From Thermoanaerobaculia bacterium (GTDB taxonomy: Bacteria > Acidobacteriota > Thermoanaerobaculia > Gp7-AA8): DNA of 49,533 nucleotides. Below, piece by piece: positions 4,263-23,299 of the stretch (the first letter of the stretch is position 1; each line of letters starts with the position of its first letter). The position numbers and the translations under genes were made by a program. Location: contig JADGNY010000041.1 in NCBI GenBank assembly GCA_017883235.1, positions 1 through 49,533 of the forward strand, given 5' to 3'. A model generated the notes under the pieces. The model did not search any database. It saw only the letters and a program-made list of their open reading frames with translations, and was not told where the DNA came from.

Positions 4263-5378
4263 ATGTTTGACGTTCACGAAATGGAGGTCAACTTCGGTCC
4301 CCAGCATCCGTCGACGCACGGGGTGCTGCGGGTGATTCTGAGGATTGACGGCGAACGGATCATCGACGCCAAGCCGATCATCGGCTACCTCCATCGAGGT
4401 ACCGAGAAGCTGTTCGAGGCCATGTCCTATCCGATGTGCATCCCGCATACGGACCGGATGGATTACGTCGCCTCGGCTACGAACAATCTCGGCTTCGTGG
4501 AGACGGTCGAGAAGCTGATGGGGATCACCAAGCAGATTCCGAAGCGCGCGCAGCTCATGCGCGTGATGCTCAGCGAGCTGCAGCGGATCTCATCGCATCT
4601 TCTCTGGCTGGCCACGCACGCCATCGACATCGGTGCGATGACGCCGTTCTTCTACTGCTTCCGCGAGCGCGAGCAGGTCCTCGATCTCTTCGAGGAGTAC
4701 TGCGGAGCGCGCCTGACGCTGAACTGCATGCGCATCGGCGGCATGCCCGACGATCTGCCGCCGGGCTGGCTCGATGGCGTAGAGAAGTTCGTCGACAAGT
4801 TCGAGGATGCCGTCGACGAGTACGAGTCGCTGCTGACGAACAACCGCATCTGGAAAAAGCGCACCGTCGGTATCGGCGTCATCTCACCGGAGGATGCCAT
4901 CGATTGGGGCATCACCGGCCCGCCGCTGCGCGGCTCTGGCGTCGAATGGGATCTTCGGCGCGCGCAGCCTTACGAGTGTTATCCGGAGCTGAAGTTCGAG
5001 ATCCCGATCGGCAAGAACGGCGATACCTACGACCGCTATCTGGTCCGGATGGAAGAGATGCGGCAGTCGAACTGGATCCTCAAACAGTGCATTCCGCTCG
5101 TGAAAAAAACGCCGGCAGGCGACATCAAGGCGAAAATCTCGCGTGTGGTGCGGCCCCCGGAGGGCGAGGTCTATCACTCCATCGAGTCGCCGAAAGGGGA
5201 GCTGGGCTACTACATCATTTCCGACGGCAAATCGCAGAGCGCCTATCGCTGCCACGTGCGCCCGCCGTCATTTGTGAACCTGCAGGCGCTGCCCGCGATG
5301 GCGAAGGGACACCTTGTCTCGGATCTGGTGGCGTTGATCGGGACGATTGATATTGTTCTGGGCGAGGTGGACCGATGA
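4263..5378 (+). CDS. nuoD: NADH-quinone oxidoreductase subunit D (NuoD)
   Basis: A 371-residue 49 kDa-type subunit that forms most of the quinone cavity. Landmarks are FGPQHPSTHGVLR with the quinone-site His, GYLHRGTEKLFE near residue 45, the PHTDRMDYV segment, and the C-terminal DLVALIGTIDIVLGEVDR. The Arg of HRGTEKL corresponds, as I recall, to the site dimethylated by NDUFAF7 in mammalian NDUFS2, which ties in with midA upstream. The ATG at 4263 (MFDVHEMEVNFGP) fits the family better than the GTGs at 4254 and 4257. A GGTGGTGG tract just before it may act as the ribosome site. The 117 bp gap from nuoC is filled by an inverted repeat. Confidence 0.95.
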   Translation: MFDVHEMEVNFGPQHPSTHGVLRVILRIDGERIIDAKPIIGYLHRGTEKLFEAMSYPMCIPHTDRMDYVASATNNLGFVETVEKLMGITKQIPKRAQLMRVMLSELQRISSHLLWLATHAIDIGAMTPFFYCFREREQVLDLFEEYCGARLTLNCMRIGGMPDDLPPGWLDGVEKFVDKFEDAVDEYESLLTNNRIWKKRTVGIGVISPEDAIDWGITGPPLRGSGVEWDLRRAQPYECYPELKFEIPIGKNGDTYDRYLVRMEEMRQSNWILKQCIPLVKKTPAGDIKAKISRVVRPPEGEVYHSIESPKGELGYYIISDGKSQSAYRCHVRPPSFVNLQALPAMAKGHLVSDLVALIGTIDIVLGEVDR

Positions 5379-17259: not shown

Positions 17260-18408
17260 GTGGCGACATCTTTCTCGCGCACGCTCCGCGCATTGAACGA
17301 TGGCGCGCCAAGACACATCCGCGTCGTGGCGGTTGTGCTGGCGTTGCTCGGGGGCTGGATCGTCTGGGCATTGGCAGGGCGCGTCTCGATTGTGGCTGTA
17401 TCGAAACGGGCGCGCTTCGAGTCCCGGCGGGCAGTTCGGCAGATCGCCATTCCCGTGAATGGCCGTATCACCAGCATTAACATCGCTCTGGGGCAGCGCG
17501 TCAATCGAGGGGACGTGCTCATCGAGCTCGACACTGCCGATGTCATGATTCGCCGCGGTAAGGCGGTCGGTGATATCGATCACCTCAGTCGCCGCATCGA
17601 GGCGGTCAACGCACAGATCTCGGCGGCGCATGCGCTGGCGACGGCGCAGACGAACGCCGCCGTGGCGAAGTTGCGGCAGGCTCGCGAGAGCCGTATCGAA
17701 GCAGGGCACCTCGCTGAGATCGAGTCGGCGAAGGCTGATCGCCTCGGCCGTCTGGGGCAGCAAGGCCTCGTGCCGCCGAGTGACGCCGCCGAGGCTCGCA
17801 GCCGTGCCGACGCCGAACGAGCAAAAGGACGCGGACTCGCCGCGGCCGAGGACGAAGTGGCAAAGGAACAGGCCGAGGCCATCTCCACCGCCGAGGCCAA
17901 GGTGCGCTCGCTCGACAGCGATCGAATTGACCTCCAGGCGCAACTGGCCGCTGATCAATCCGCGGTGAAGCAGGCCGATGTCGACCTGGAACGCCTTCGC
18001 GTCCGCGCTCCGGCCGATGGACGCATCGGCAGCTCGGCCGAGCTACGTCCAGGCGCGTGGGTTGTCGAAGGGACCGTGGTTGCGTCGATCGTTCCCATCG
18101 AGCCGATGGAGGTGGCGGCCTGGTTCGCTGTTGACGACATGCCCCTTCTGCACACCGGCCAGAGCGCGTCCATCTGGCTCGATGCCCTCGGCCGCGGAGG
18201 ACGGCGCCGCTTCGCCGCGACGGTCACAGGGATCGAGCGCGACCCGAGCGGAAGCGACTTCCGTGTCACGTTGCGCCTTCTGACGATTCCACCCGCTGGC
18301 TCCGCCATCGACCAGGGCTTCCCAGCGACGGTGACAATTGACGTACAGCGCCTCTCGCCGTTCGACGCATTGTTGCGTGCGGCCGGCATGCTGCCGGCGG
18401 CGAAGTGA
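17260..18408 (+). CDS. HlyD-family periplasmic adaptor (membrane fusion protein)
   Basis: A 382-residue adaptor protein. One N-terminal membrane segment (about residues 20-42) is followed by a lipoyl-like half-domain (IAIPVNGRITSINIALGQRV, then GDVLIELDT). A long Ala/Glu/Arg-rich coiled coil (about 105-240) follows, then the second lipoyl half (LRVRAPADGRIG) and a beta-barrel region to the C-terminus. This is the architecture of HlyD/EmrA-type proteins that bridge an inner-membrane ABC exporter to the outer membrane. The GTG start lacks a clear ribosome site. Its stop overlaps the next gene as GTGA, so it is the partner of the following transporters. Confidence 0.88.
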   Translation: MATSFSRTLRALNDGAPRHIRVVAVVLALLGGWIVWALAGRVSIVAVSKRARFESRRAVRQIAIPVNGRITSINIALGQRVNRGDVLIELDTADVMIRRGKAVGDIDHLSRRIEAVNAQISAAHALATAQTNAAVAKLRQARESRIEAGHLAEIESAKADRLGRLGQQGLVPPSDAAEARSRADAERAKGRGLAAAEDEVAKEQAEAISTAEAKVRSLDSDRIDLQAQLAADQSAVKQADVDLERLRVRAPADGRIGSSAELRPGAWVVEGTVVASIVPIEPMEVAAWFAVDDMPLLHTGQSASIWLDALGRGGRRRFAATVTGIERDPSGSDFRVTLRLLTIPPAGSAIDQGFPATVTIDVQRLSPFDALLRAAGMLPAAK

Positions 18409-21014
18409 GCGACTCAATGCGAGCGCGCTTCTTCGTTCCGGAAACGATTCAGACCTCCGCGGTTGACTGCGGCCCCGCCGCCCTCAAGTCGCTGCTCGAA
18501 GGTTTTGGCATCAGCGTCAGCTATGGCCGCTTGCGTGAAGCGTGTCAGACAAGTCTCGATGGCACGTCGATCGATACCATCGAGCTGGTTGCCGGCGAGC
18601 TAGGCCTGGACGCGCAGCAGGTAATGATTCCACCCGACTACCTGGCGCTCGACGACACGGTTCTCCCCGCGGTCGTGGTGACACGCCTTCCCACCGGCTA
18701 CACGCACTTCGTCGTCGTGTGGCGCAAGGTGGGCCCGTTCTTCCAGATCATGGACCCAGCCTCTGGCCGCCGGTGGGTGCGCATCCGCGATTTCCTCGCC
18801 AGCGTGTACGTTCATCGCCACATCGTGCCTGCTGATAGCTGGCGCGAATGGATGTCGTCGGATGAGGCGACGCGGGTGTTGCAACGGCGCATCACGTCGT
18901 TTGGTGGCGAGCAATTTGCGCGCGCTATCACCGATCGGCAATTGCGCGAAGCTGGCTGGCTTCCGCTGGCACGGCTCGATGGGGCCACGCGGCTGACGGA
19001 TGCGCTGGTGCGCAATGGAGCGGTGCGACGAGGGGCCGAAGCGGAGCGGCTGTTGGAAGCATTCCTTACGACCGAGGACACGATCCCGGAACCCTATTGG
19101 TCGGTGTCTGCCGCGCAGGGTGATCAAGTAGTCCTTCGCGGCGCGGTGCTGATTCGCATCAGCCGAGTGTCAGGCGAGGCCGCTGCCGAAACGACGAATG
19201 GCGAGCTTGCAGCCGCCGTGCGCGAGCCGCGCGTGCGTCCGCTTGCGCGGGCTCTGGCGCTGCTCGCGCCTGCCACGCGAAGGGCCTTGCCGCTTGCTGC
19301 GATCGCGGCGCTGGTCCTCGGAGTTACCTCGGTCGCCGAGGGTCTGCTCTTTCGATCGCTGTTCGATTTCGTCGCCGATGTCGGATTGCCGCAGGAACGG
19401 CTCGTGGCTATTGGCGCGTTCGCGATCCTGGCTGTGCTTCTGGTCACGCTCGACTACGCCGTCACCAGCCGTGTGGTGGCGTGGGGACGCGAGCTGGAGG
19501 CGCGGTTCGCGGCGGCTCTCTTCGGCAGACTGGCCTCGCTCCGCAGCGACTACTTCGGAAGCCGCCTCGTCTCCGACATGGCCGAGCGAGCGCACGCCAT
19601 CAACGAGCTTCGATCGCTGCCGTTTCTTCTGTCGCGCGCGCTGCGTAGCACGTCGACGTTCGCGATCACGCTGGCCGCCCTCATTTATCTGATGCCGCGG
19701 GCGAGCGTCACGCTCGCCATCGGCGCGCTGGTGCTGCTTGGAATTGCGTTCTCGTTCGCGCCGATCTTTGCGGAGATCGACCTTCGGGCCCGGACACATA
19801 GTGGCGGTCTGACGCGCTTCTACCTCGATGCATTGGCTGGTCTGGGTGTGATCCAGGCCCACTCCGCCGAGCGCGTCGTGCGCAGAGAGCATGAGTCGCT
19901 GATGACCGACTGGGTGCGCGCACTGCGGCGCCAGATTGCCGCCGCGGTATCGCAGACGACGATCCTGGCCGTGGCCGGATTTGCGCTGACGGCGGTGCTA
20001 ATCCGCCGGTACCTCGGGTCGGTCGAAGATCCCGGCGGCGTGCTGCTCATCGCATACTGGGCGCTCAACTTGCCAGCCGTCGCCGCCGAGATCGCCCAGG
20101 CTCTGCAGACGTGGGCCAGCCAGCGATCGGTCATCCTGCGGCTTCTCGAACCGCTCGATGCGCCGGCGGAAGAAGCAGCTATCGCTCTTCCTGATGACGC
20201 AGAGGCGCACGGCGTTGCGATCGAGTTTCGCGGCGCTGTCTTCGCCGCGGCCGGACACGAGATTCTTTCCGGCATCGATCTGGCCATACCGGCAGGGGCG
20301 CGCGTCGGTATCGTGGGCTCGTCCGGCGCTGGTAAGTCGACGCTCGTAGGCGCACTCCTCGGATGGATGCAGCCAAGCGCGGGGCAGGTGCTCGTCGACG
20401 GCGTCCACCTCACGCCCGCCCGTATCGCCTCGCTTCGCCGGGAGACTGCCTGGGTCGATCCCGCGATCCAGCTTTTCAATGTGCCGATGGAGGAAAACAT
20501 CCGCTACGCATCCGGCGCTGATGACGTGGCCCGGCTGCCGTTCGCACTGAACGAGGCCGAGCTGTACGAAGTGCTGCAGCGCATTCCCGATTCGCAGATG
20601 CCGCTCGGTGAAGGCGGCGGGATGCTCTCGGGCGGGGAAGGACAGCGCGTGCGCGTGGCGCGGGCGCTGATGCAGGCGCGGCCACGGATGGTCATCCTCG
20701 ATGAGGCCTTCCGCGGAATGGATCGCACCATGCGGAACGATCTGCTGCGGCGCTGCCGGCGGCTGTGGTGCGATGCGACGTTTCTCTTCGTGACGCACGA
20801 CGTCGACGAGACGGCTGACTGCGACCGTGTCGTCGTCATGCAGGCTGGCCGCGTCGTCGAGTACGACACCCCCGATGCGTTGATCGCGCGCGGAGACTCG
20901 CTTTACAACCGGATGCGTGAATCGAGCCGCGGCATTCGCGATGAAATCTGGGGAAGTCCGATGTGGAGGCCTTTCGAACTTCGCAACGGGCACATGGCGG
21001 AGGGTGCGCCGTGA
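18405..21014 (+). CDS. Peptidase C39-containing ABC exporter (PCAT)
   Basis: An 869-residue bacteriocin or peptide-type exporter. Residues 10-145 are a C39 cysteine peptidase with all key residues in place: Gln16 in ETIQTS, Cys22 in VDCGPAAL, His101 in GYTHFVVV and Asp117 in IMDPASGR. Such domains cut leader peptides after a Gly-Gly type motif during export. An extra segment of about 120 residues (about 150-270) of unknown role separates it from the six-helix membrane domain (about 285-560). The ATPase has Walker A GSSGAGKST (about 638), signature LSGGEGQR (about 741) and Walker B MVILDE. It starts at a GTG overlapping the HlyD stop and ends overlapping the next transporter. Confidence 0.93.
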   Translation: MSDSMRARFFVPETIQTSAVDCGPAALKSLLEGFGISVSYGRLREACQTSLDGTSIDTIELVAGELGLDAQQVMIPPDYLALDDTVLPAVVVTRLPTGYTHFVVVWRKVGPFFQIMDPASGRRWVRIRDFLASVYVHRHIVPADSWREWMSSDEATRVLQRRITSFGGEQFARAITDRQLREAGWLPLARLDGATRLTDALVRNGAVRRGAEAERLLEAFLTTEDTIPEPYWSVSAAQGDQVVLRGAVLIRISRVSGEAAAETTNGELAAAVREPRVRPLARALALLAPATRRALPLAAIAALVLGVTSVAEGLLFRSLFDFVADVGLPQERLVAIGAFAILAVLLVTLDYAVTSRVVAWGRELEARFAAALFGRLASLRSDYFGSRLVSDMAERAHAINELRSLPFLLSRALRSTSTFAITLAALIYLMPRASVTLAIGALVLLGIAFSFAPIFAEIDLRARTHSGGLTRFYLDALAGLGVIQAHSAERVVRREHESLMTDWVRALRRQIAAAVSQTTILAVAGFALTAVLIRRYLGSVEDPGGVLLIAYWALNLPAVAAEIAQALQTWASQRSVILRLLEPLDAPAEEAAIALPDDAEAHGVAIEFRGAVFAAAGHEILSGIDLAIPAGARVGIVGSSGAGKSTLVGALLGWMQPSAGQVLVDGVHLTPARIASLRRETAWVDPAIQLFNVPMEENIRYASGADDVARLPFALNEAELYEVLQRIPDSQMPLGEGGGMLSGGEGQRVRVARALMQARPRMVILDEAFRGMDRTMRNDLLRRCRRLWCDATFLFVTHDVDETADCDRVVVMQAGRVVEYDTPDALIARGDSLYNRMRESSRGIRDEIWGSPMWRPFELRNGHMAEGAP

Positions 21015-23089
21015 GCGATCGATTCAACGAAATCGCCTGGCCAATCGAGCGCGTGGGCGAAGCGATCGAAGCCGTTGCGCGTGCGCGGCATTGGCTCGCG
21101 CATGACACCTTGAGCGCGACGCCTGCCTCGATCGAGCGGGCCGCGGGGGCAGCCGGCGTGGAAGCAGAAGCCGTCTCGCTTCGCTACGCCTCGGTCGATG
21201 GTGAACTGCGTGCGCTCGGCGCCGCCATCATCATCGTGGCCGCGGGCGTTCTGTCAATCGTCCGCACGGACGCCCGGTACGCCAACGTATTGACGCCCGA
21301 TGGGCGCCGCGTCGCGGTACCGCTGTGGCGCCTTCGCCAGGCCATTTGCACAAACGTGGAGGAGAGGTTCTCGCCGGACGTCGATCGTGTACTGGCCATG
21401 AGCGGCATTGCCGGCAACCGACTGAAGAGCTCACGCGCGGCCATGTTGCGGGAGCTTGTCGGCGATGCTCCGGTGGGCGAGCTTTGGGTTATCCGGCCGC
21501 GGCCCGAGAACGTCCGCGCGGTCGTTCGCGATGCCCGTCTTCTGAGAAAGGCGCTGGTATTCCTCAGCGTGAACGCCGCCGAAATGCTGCTCTTCGTCCT
21601 CTCATGGTGGATCCTCGGACTGATGGCGTTCGATACCCGCTCGCTGGACACGCTGTTCGCGCTCTGGCTGCTGGCTGTCGTCACCATCGTTCCGCTTCGC
21701 GCGGCAGGCGTCGTGGCTGCGCGCTCGCTGGTGGTCGAAGCCGGCTCGGTCATCAAACGGCGCATCCTGCTCGGCGCGTTGAAGCTCACGCCCGATGAGG
21801 TGAACGGCAAAGGCGTCGGAACGTTTCTCAGCCACGTGCTGGAGTCCGGCGCCGTGGAGGCCCTCGGTACGAGCGGCGCGTTCGCGGGGCTGACCTCGAT
21901 CATTGCCGGGGCATTCGCGATCTATGTCCTGAGCCGGGGCGCCGGCGGCGTCTGGCATGTCGCGCTGTATCTGGTCTGGATACTCCTCGCGGCCGCGATC
22001 ACAGTGCGCTTCGGGCTGACGCGGGCGGCCTGGACGGAGGCGCGTTTCGCGCTGACGGGACACGTCGTCGAGAACATGACCGGCCACAAGACCCGGCTGG
22101 CGCAGAAACCGGCCGATGAGCGCAACAGCGGAGAGGACCTCCGGCTGGAGGAGTACATTGCCACGGAGGCGGCCTTCAACCGTAGCGCTGTGTCGCTCGA
22201 TGTTCTGCGCAGGCTCTGGCCGTGGGCAGGTCTGTTCGCACTCGCCCCAATCGCCGCCACCGGCAGCGCGTCGGCGGCTTCACTCGCCGTGGCGGCGGCG
22301 GGCGTTCTCCTCGGTGAGACTGCGTTGATGCAGTGGACCGACGCGACGGCCGGGATGGCCGCGGCGCTCAGCGCGTGGCGGCGGGTGGCGCCTTTCTGGC
22401 GCGCCGCCGATCGCGAATCACCATCCGGTAGCGTGGCGCTTCAGCCGCTGCTCGATGCGCCTGCAACTGGCGATTCACTGCCTCTGCTGCACGCGACGTC
22501 GCTCACCTATCGCCACGCGCGCCGTGATGCGCCGGCCCTCGAGCAGGTGGATCTCACGGTGCGGCGCGGCGACCGCATCCTGCTTCGCGGTCCGTCGGGC
22601 TCCGGCAAGTCGACGCTCTCGGCACTCCTGAGCGGCGTGCGTCCACTGCAGTCGGGCCTTCTGTTTTTCCGAGGACTCGACGTGGCCAGCGTGGGCGTTG
22701 AGAACTGGCGGCGCCGCGTGCTTCTCGCGCCGCAGTTTCACGCCAACCATATCTTCATCGGCACGCTCGCCTACAACCTGCTGCTCGGCGGCACCTGGCC
22801 GGCGTCGCCGTCCGATCGGGAGGAGGCGCGCGCAGTTTGCCGCGGCCTGGGATTGGGCTCACTCATCGACAGCATGCCGCTCGGTCTCGAGCAGCCGGTT
22901 GGGGAGACAGGATGGCAACTAAGCCACGGCGAGCGGACCCGCGTTTTTCTGGCTCGTTCGATCCTGCAGAAGCCGGCGCTGACCATCCTCGACGAGACCT
23001 TCGCCGCGCTCGATCCGGCAACGCTGGCGGGCTGCATGCGTTACGTGCTCGATCACAGCGAGACGTTGATCGTGGTCGCGCATCCGTGA
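21011..23089 (+). CDS. Second ABC transporter with degenerate peptidase-like N-terminus
   Basis: A 692-residue ABC transporter. The N-terminal domain of about 170 residues has a C39-like strand pattern (LGAAIIIVAAGVLSIV, then NVLTPDGRRVAVPLWRL) but lacks the catalytic Cys and His. It thus resembles the degenerate domain of bacteriocin transporters that bind but do not cut substrate. Membrane segments follow (about 180-460), then the ATPase: Walker A GPSGSGKST (about 527), an altered signature LSHGERTR (about 637) and Walker B LTILDE. Paired transporters, one with and one without peptidase, also occur in the NHLM-type peptide export systems. The GTG at 21011 overlaps the previous stop as GTGA. 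Confidence 0.85.
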   Translation: MSDRFNEIAWPIERVGEAIEAVARARHWLAHDTLSATPASIERAAGAAGVEAEAVSLRYASVDGELRALGAAIIIVAAGVLSIVRTDARYANVLTPDGRRVAVPLWRLRQAICTNVEERFSPDVDRVLAMSGIAGNRLKSSRAAMLRELVGDAPVGELWVIRPRPENVRAVVRDARLLRKALVFLSVNAAEMLLFVLSWWILGLMAFDTRSLDTLFALWLLAVVTIVPLRAAGVVAARSLVVEAGSVIKRRILLGALKLTPDEVNGKGVGTFLSHVLESGAVEALGTSGAFAGLTSIIAGAFAIYVLSRGAGGVWHVALYLVWILLAAAITVRFGLTRAAWTEARFALTGHVVENMTGHKTRLAQKPADERNSGEDLRLEEYIATEAAFNRSAVSLDVLRRLWPWAGLFALAPIAATGSASAASLAVAAAGVLLGETALMQWTDATAGMAAALSAWRRVAPFWRAADRESPSGSVALQPLLDAPATGDSLPLLHATSLTYRHARRDAPALEQVDLTVRRGDRILLRGPSGSGKSTLSALLSGVRPLQSGLLFFRGLDVASVGVENWRRRVLLAPQFHANHIFIGTLAYNLLLGGTWPASPSDREEARAVCRGLGLGSLIDSMPLGLEQPVGETGWQLSHGERTRVFLARSILQKPALTILDETFAALDPATLAGCMRYVLDHSETLIVVAHP

Positions 23090-23093
23090 AACG

Positions 23094-23117
23094 AGGCCTG
23101 GGGTGTGCCCCAGGCCT
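23094..23117. terminator. Hairpin between the exporter operon and the convergent peptide gene
   Basis: A perfect 10 bp stem (AGGCCTGGGG / CCCCAGGCCT) with a TGTG loop lies 5 bp after the exporter stop and 11 bp after the stop of the convergent 16-codon gene. The T-tract is poor on both sides (CGTTTC on the minus strand), so it may serve as a weak bidirectional terminator or 3' stabiliser. Confidence 0.6.
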
Positions 23118-23127
23118 TGGGGTGAAA

Positions 23128-23178
23128 CTAATCGCCAACCAACACGCCGCCTGCTTTCACATCGGTCTTGACGTTCAC
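23128..23178 (-). CDS. 16-residue peptide, candidate export substrate of the C39 transporters
   Basis: The product is MNVKTDVKAGGVLVGD. The GTG start is preceded by AAGGAGGTGAT, an 11-base perfect match to the 16S rRNA tail, five bases from the start codon. An in-frame TGA inside that Shine-Dalgarno rules out a longer form. A consensus promoter lies about 95 bp upstream and a strong hairpin follows the stop. The Gly10-Gly11 pair is where a C39 peptidase might cut, leaving VLVGD, but the usual hydrophobic -4 residue is Lys here. The gene converges on the exporter operon with a 38 bp gap. The combination of signals argues strongly for a translated gene. That it is the exported substrate is inference. 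It could instead be a leader peptide or a cytoplasmic micropeptide. Confidence 0.7.
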   Translation of the reverse strand: MNVKTDVKAGGVLVGD

Positions 23179-23179
23179 C

Positions 23180-23190
23180 TGAAATCACCT
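23180..23190 (-). promoter_or_regulatory. Extended perfect Shine-Dalgarno of the peptide gene
   Basis: Read on the minus strand the sequence is AAGGAGGTGAT, complementary to the full anti-Shine-Dalgarno tail of 16S rRNA. Together with the in-frame TGA it contains, it fixes the start at the GTG just downstream. No other gene in the window has so long a match. Confidence 0.8.
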
Positions 23191-23271
23191 CCTTGACTTC
23201 CACATGGATTGAGATGCCCCGAACCAAGGACGTGGTTCTCGCGGCAATCTCTTTTCTGGTGGAAGACCATC

Positions 23272-23299
23272 ATTCTATGGCCAGACCAGCGCATGTCAA
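23272..23299 (-). promoter_or_regulatory. Consensus sigma70 promoter of the peptide gene
   Basis: On the minus strand TTGACA (23299-23294) and TAGAAT (23277-23272) are separated by 16 bp. A start site near 23265 gives a leader of about 85 nt and a transcript of about 175 nt ending at the hairpin. The full-consensus -35 is matched in this window only by the secG promoter. Confidence 0.75.

Follow-up and report, generated by a model that had tools for sequence, protein, structure and literature searches.

A previously undescribed family of microproteins is encoded in genomes of the class Thermoanaerobaculia, and its members are probably the substrates of a three-gene exporter that carries an active-type C39 peptidase. 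One of them is the product of a 16-codon gene in the window, by which we mean the whole 49,533-nucleotide stretch of DNA analysed here; about 30 related microproteins were found in other genomes of the class. As judged from their sequences, each peptide would consist of a 10-residue leader and a core of 5–8 residues or longer, and the C39 peptidase would trim the leader so that the core is secreted, perhaps as a signal. A literature search found no earlier description of the family.

The 16-codon gene and the exporter operon

The 16-codon gene is convergent with the exporter operon and 38 bp separate it from the stop codon of the second ABC transporter gene (Table 1). Its promoter has 11 of 12 sigma-70 matches, with one such promoter found against 0.1 expected in shuffled sequence. 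The perfect 11-nt Shine-Dalgarno sequence occurs as an exact copy once in the whole window (chance 0.01), while the next-best match among the 1253 possible ORFs of 10–40 codons is 7 nt long. The hairpin between the two transcription units was not called by a strict terminator scan because it has no long T run; with its weak T run, it is probably a terminator shared by the gene and the operon. The first-pass annotation had listed the promoter, the 11-base Shine-Dalgarno sequence, the GTG start locked by a TGA, the 16 codons and the 3′ hairpin, and had placed the gene 38 bp from a convergent HlyD/C39/ABC operon; all of these were borne out, the operon with the help of Pfam. We conclude that the ORF is a real gene. 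A search of its own genome for exact DNA relatives returned only the gene itself.

Table 1. Positions of the peptide gene, its signals and the exporter genes in the window
Feature	Position	Strand	Basis or remarks
HlyD-family periplasmic adaptor	17260–18408	plus	Pfam HlyD_3, 2.7e-15
C39 peptidase-containing ABC exporter (C39-ABC)	18405–21014	plus	Pfam; catalytic Q16, C22, H101, D117
Second ABC transporter	20963–23089	plus	Pfam; N-terminal C39-like domain without conserved catalytic Cys
10-bp GC-rich hairpin	23094–23117	minus	between the convergent 16-codon gene and exporter operon
16-codon gene MNVKTDVKAGGVLVGD	23128–23178	minus	GTG start (23178–23176), TAG stop (23130–23128); putative leader MNVKTDVKAG, presumed core GVLVGD
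11-nt perfect Shine-Dalgarno sequence AAGGAGGTGAT	23184–23194	minus	upstream of the 16-codon gene
In-frame TGA fixing the start codon of the 16-codon gene	23185–23187	minus	read directly
Sigma-70-type promoter TTGACA-N16-TAGAAT	23272–23299	minus	TTGACA 23299–23294, TAGAAT 23277–23272

The first ABC protein combines a C39 domain with an ABC transporter, as in the PCAT exporters, and its catalytic Q, C, H and D are invariant in all 19 C39 domains aligned (the window and 18 relatives), in keeping with the earlier description of the exporter as of the active type. Its predicted structure has a pLDDT of 91, and structure comparison matched the modelled C39 fold to the peptidase domains of LahT, PCAT1 and ComA. 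The C39 domain and the membrane part are separated by an extra conserved domain of ca. 110 residues (residues ~143–255; window 18830–19170), in which a Trp and an Arg are invariant in the 19 sequences aligned. The N terminus of the second ABC protein (window 21008–21400) also resembles C39-like domains (3b79 and 6mpz in Foldseek), with a middling score (VIA Z of ~8 over 110 residues), and sequence comparison found no conserved Cys in this domain. The Walker A motif and an LSHGE signature are kept in the same protein. The exporter may pair an active with an inactive C39 protein in a heteromer. The order of HlyD, C39-ABC and an ABC protein without active peptidase is that of the NHLP/N11P cassettes.

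The peptide family and its association with the exporter

The relatives of the 16-codon gene are short ORFs directly behind a Shine-Dalgarno sequence and a start codon, and nearly all follow the pattern M-x-[VI]-[KRQN]-T-x-[VIL]-K-A-G with a variable tail. A search pattern anchored on the Shine-Dalgarno sequence, with codons 2, 5 and 6 left free, gave 13 matches in 10 of the 147 genomes of the class and none when the pattern was reversed. All 13 are 15–35 residues long and conform to M-x-[VI]-K-T-x-[VIL]-[KR]-[AS]-G, with Thr at position 5 even though the pattern did not require it. A looser pattern, run over 20 exporter-positive genomes, gave 46 matches compared with 5 in the control, further members among them. 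When a position-specific score was applied to the fetched loci, members with a Shine-Dalgarno sequence scored at least 16 bits and the next candidates ~9 or less; this profile scan added members beside the exporter operons of G439, G452 and G355, in addition to the member next to the operon of G477. The search patterns were built from the window's sequence and missed distant members. An initial degenerate search of the phylum, with K-T/S-x-VKAGG, had given mostly chance matches in long ORFs because it required GG. No family in Pfam or NCBIfam matched the longer members, which were the ones scanned (the 16-mer is below the 20-residue minimum), and the plasmid and phage collections gave no match.

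In a set of 30 members, the lengths range from 15 to 59 residues (median 19), with 26 of them at 15–30 and 29 at 15–38 residues. Within the leader, T5 is present in 29, V, L or I at position 7 in 30, K8 in 29, A9 in 29 (S in the other) and G10 in all 30. The codons for T5, A9 and G10 vary between members, so conservation is at the level of the residues. Examples are MKVKTKVKAGLAPTCGCGARGKGDHKPSYLGRHTR of G059, found by a degenerate leader search directly upstream of the orthologous operon on the same contig, with the same arrangement in its congener G420, and MQVKTKVKAGFDLEDY and MKVKTNIKAGADAWD, which carry the tails FDLEDY and ADAWD. Peptide genes also occur in tandem (L134, positions 9969 and 10076, in G468; L216, positions 1277 and 1430, in G422), as in the pair MQVKTNLKAGPDISN followed by MKVQTSVKAGPRIIINP. 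In G355, 1.2 kb upstream of HlyD, a 93-residue protein (L177, 12638–12919) contains four tandem VRTGVKAGG-P-[VFY]-LQHNK units and, going by these repeats, is a multi-unit form of the precursor.

That the ORF arose by chance with lucky signals, or is a decayed gene, has in its favour its mere 16 codons and its absence from other members of its own genus (G001 and G002). This reading is refuted by the family, with about 30 relatives, conserved residues under different codons and near-empty controls; together with the Shine-Dalgarno sequence and the association with the exporter, this leaves it a negligible probability. Selection within the peptides was also compared, since the first-pass annotation had regarded equal accumulation of synonymous and non-synonymous changes as evidence against function. 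The outcome was mixed. A pair of 16-residue orthologues with identical six-residue tails differs in three synonymous and one non-synonymous codons between diverged flanks, and a pair of 35-residue orthologues shows 11 synonymous and 8 non-synonymous differences, whereas paralogues diverge freely, and chiefly in the tail.

Of the 147 class genomes, 19 have an orthologue of the C39 domain (E of 1e-52 or better); the next matches, in the 12 genomes examined, were at ~1e-9 or weaker. In a set of 60 related genomes, full-length C39-ABC orthologues were limited to two, and a protein search of the genome_contigs collection with C39-ABC returned only distant ABC proteins. In the single search anchored on the Shine-Dalgarno sequence, all 10 genomes with strict peptide matches were among the 19 with the exporter, and none was among the 128 without it (Fisher 9.7e-11 by genome; 1.4e-6 by genus, with 7 genera all inside 13 of 70). 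Outside the class, G119 has both exporter and peptide. The looser search, which was run in exporter-positive genomes only and hence kept out of this test, placed a member in 16 of the 19; none was found in G410, G435 and G441. Neither exporter orthologue nor peptide was found in G001 and G002, and the module is therefore sporadic in the window's genus. The genes next to the window's operon (for a TPR protein, a secreted protein and an ABC-2 permease) also follow the operon of G410 (L176, 14796–18047), where those for the TPR and secreted proteins are oriented opposite to the operon.

A peptide gene lies within 4 kb of the HlyD/C39-ABC/ABC operon in 8 of the 19 exporter-positive genomes; the nominal chance of 3e-14, calculated for two uniformly placed members in each genome, is indicative only. 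In the window and in G452 (14 bp) the gene follows the operon and is convergent with it; in G059 (151 bp), G420 (103 bp), G440 (85 bp) and G439 (102 bp) it precedes the operon and reads in the same direction; and in G355 (1.2 kb) and G477 (3.7 kb) it is farther upstream. The first-pass annotation had asked whether the tiny ORF is conserved beside orthologous exporters, and it is, at 14–151 bp in five other genomes and at 1.2–3.7 kb in two. Its suggestion that the peptide is the exporter's substrate is likewise supported, the class-wide search having found the peptide in exporter-carrying genomes only. In the largest genomes most family members are not beside the operon.

The four genomes in which the ORF precedes HlyD by 85–151 bp, in the same orientation, would also suit a cytoplasmic regulatory peptide, or a translated leader (attenuator), that controls the exporter and is not its cargo. 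We consider this very improbable, since the ORF is downstream and convergent in the window and G452, a promoter of its own precedes the window copy, copies distant from the operon are numerous, and a conserved N terminus with a variable tail is the reverse of what arrest or attenuator peptides show. The peptides could instead be RiPP precursors, their tails modified by an enzyme encoded elsewhere before the same exporter removes the leader. The operon's NHLP/N11P-like layout and the Cys, Ser or Thr in some tails (LAPTCGCG... in G059 and G420) are compatible with this, but tails such as ADAWD, PDISN and FDLEDY offer few modifiable residues and no known RiPP modification enzyme was seen among the neighbours scanned with Pfam. 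Clustering of the exporter-flanking ORFs, which was swamped by reverse-strand shadow ORFs, indicated no modification enzyme either, and no consistent accessory gene beyond the operon was seen near the peptides. On balance, we regard modified precursors as rather unlikely.

Proposed cleavage, export and role

C39 peptidases read hydrophobic residues at positions −4, −7 and −12, and their known sites end in GG, GA or GS (PMC10885120, PMC6363468); classical double-glycine leaders have ~24 residues (PMC2887384). The first-pass annotation had taken a Gly-Gly pair as the cut site, VLVGD as the product and a Lys at −4 as atypical. Such a cut, after KAGG, would indeed leave VLVGD with K at −4 in the window member, which does contain GG. 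But only 2 of 30 members have Gly at position 11, and what is conserved at the end of the leader is K-A-G, so the pair is not a feature of the family. A cut after KAG is likely on this alignment and would yield GVLVGD rather than VLVGD; the residue at −4 is then V, L or I in 30 of 30 members, and the atypical Lys drops out. At −2/−1 the family has A-G in 29 of 30 and S-G in one, at −7 it has K, Q, R, N or T, and a 10-residue leader has no position −12.

Substrates that are cut have GG and characteristic residues at −7 and −12, which this leader lacks; together with the Cys-less C39-like domain of the second ABC protein, this could mean that the peptides are exported intact, or bound by C39 without cutting as with the C39-like domain of HlyB. 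Catalytic Q, C, H and D would, however, hardly be conserved without proteolysis, and they are kept in all 19 aligned first ABC proteins, so intact export appears improbable.

The comparisons make trimming and secretion of the peptides by the pump the most likely course of events. The 16-codon gene would encode a minimal export precursor, whose leader, M-x-V/I-K-T-x-V/L/I-K-A-G, would be recognized by the C39 peptidase of the adjacent exporter. This Cys protease would cut after AG, or possibly after GG in the window member, and C39-ABC, the Cys-less second ABC protein and HlyD would carry the tail of 5–8 residues (here GVLVGD) out of the cell, with a TolC-type channel, presumably encoded elsewhere, completing the path. 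A single exporter would serve several precursors, some adjoining the operon and others elsewhere in the genome. The tails, being very short, variable and unmodified-looking, would suit a pore-forming bacteriocin less well than a secreted signal peptide, and it is from their 5–8 residues that we infer a signal role; perhaps the exported peptides act as chemical signals. Tentatively, they could be among the smallest dedicated export precursors known, several linear signals per cell leaving through one heteromeric C39 exporter, in a pheromone-like language of a Gram-negative phylum that was possibly borrowed by phages.

A short ORF with a Shine-Dalgarno sequence, MKVKTGVKAGQSTSDILD, is present at 4378–4434 of a 12.8-kb IMG/VR contig (L087), although, by our estimate, IMG/VR probably yields about as many pattern matches as chance would. 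The tail of this ORF is similar to QSTTGILE of G440, a tail that the search did not require. The contig also carries genes for a phage portal, head protease and major head protein; no exporter gene was found in its 12.8 kb. IMG/VR scans with VKT-VKAG patterns otherwise returned mostly unrelated long proteins. By analogy, a phage copy of this kind may recall arbitrium.

If the proposed export is correct, the family provides candidate signals of 5–8 residues for bacteria with little-known peptide communication, and a handle on the minimum size of a C39 leader. Because ordinary annotation applies length limits that genes this short do not reach, a whole layer of secreted peptides may be missing from genomes.

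Comparison with known systems

Short linear pheromones of the RRNPP type (SHP, Phr and PapR) and the arbitrium peptides of phages have final products of 5–8 residues. The presumed cores here are of the same size, but those peptides are not known to be C39 substrates. The RRNPP class is described in PMC7595303.

With the double-glycine peptides of Gram-positive bacteria (ComC/ComA, class II bacteriocins), the system shares an active C39 peptidase fused to an ABC exporter and a hydrophobic residue at −4. The classical leaders differ in their length, in the hydrophobic residues at −7 and −12 and in the GG, GA or GS at their end (PMC10885120, PMC2887384, PMC6363468).

The NHLP/N11P systems (cassette TIGR03794/03796/03797; Haft 2010, PMC2887384) differ in that their leaders average 70–83 residues and end in GG, compared with 10 ending in KAG here. 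The present leader is too short to be nitrile-hydratase-like or Nif11-like, and the longer members gave no above-cut-off family. The exporter proteins also score far below the cut-offs of the three models (196.5 vs 853.3, 31.2 vs 156.2 and 103.5 vs 709.4 bits), and, unlike that of NHLP/N11P, the second ABC protein begins with a C39-like domain. Both nevertheless share the set of HlyD, C39-ABC and a second ABC protein, and in both the precursor family was found through co-occurrence with the cassette. In both, moreover, a genome holds several paralogous precursors, often at sites distant from the exporter, with a conserved leader and a variable tail (PMC2887384).
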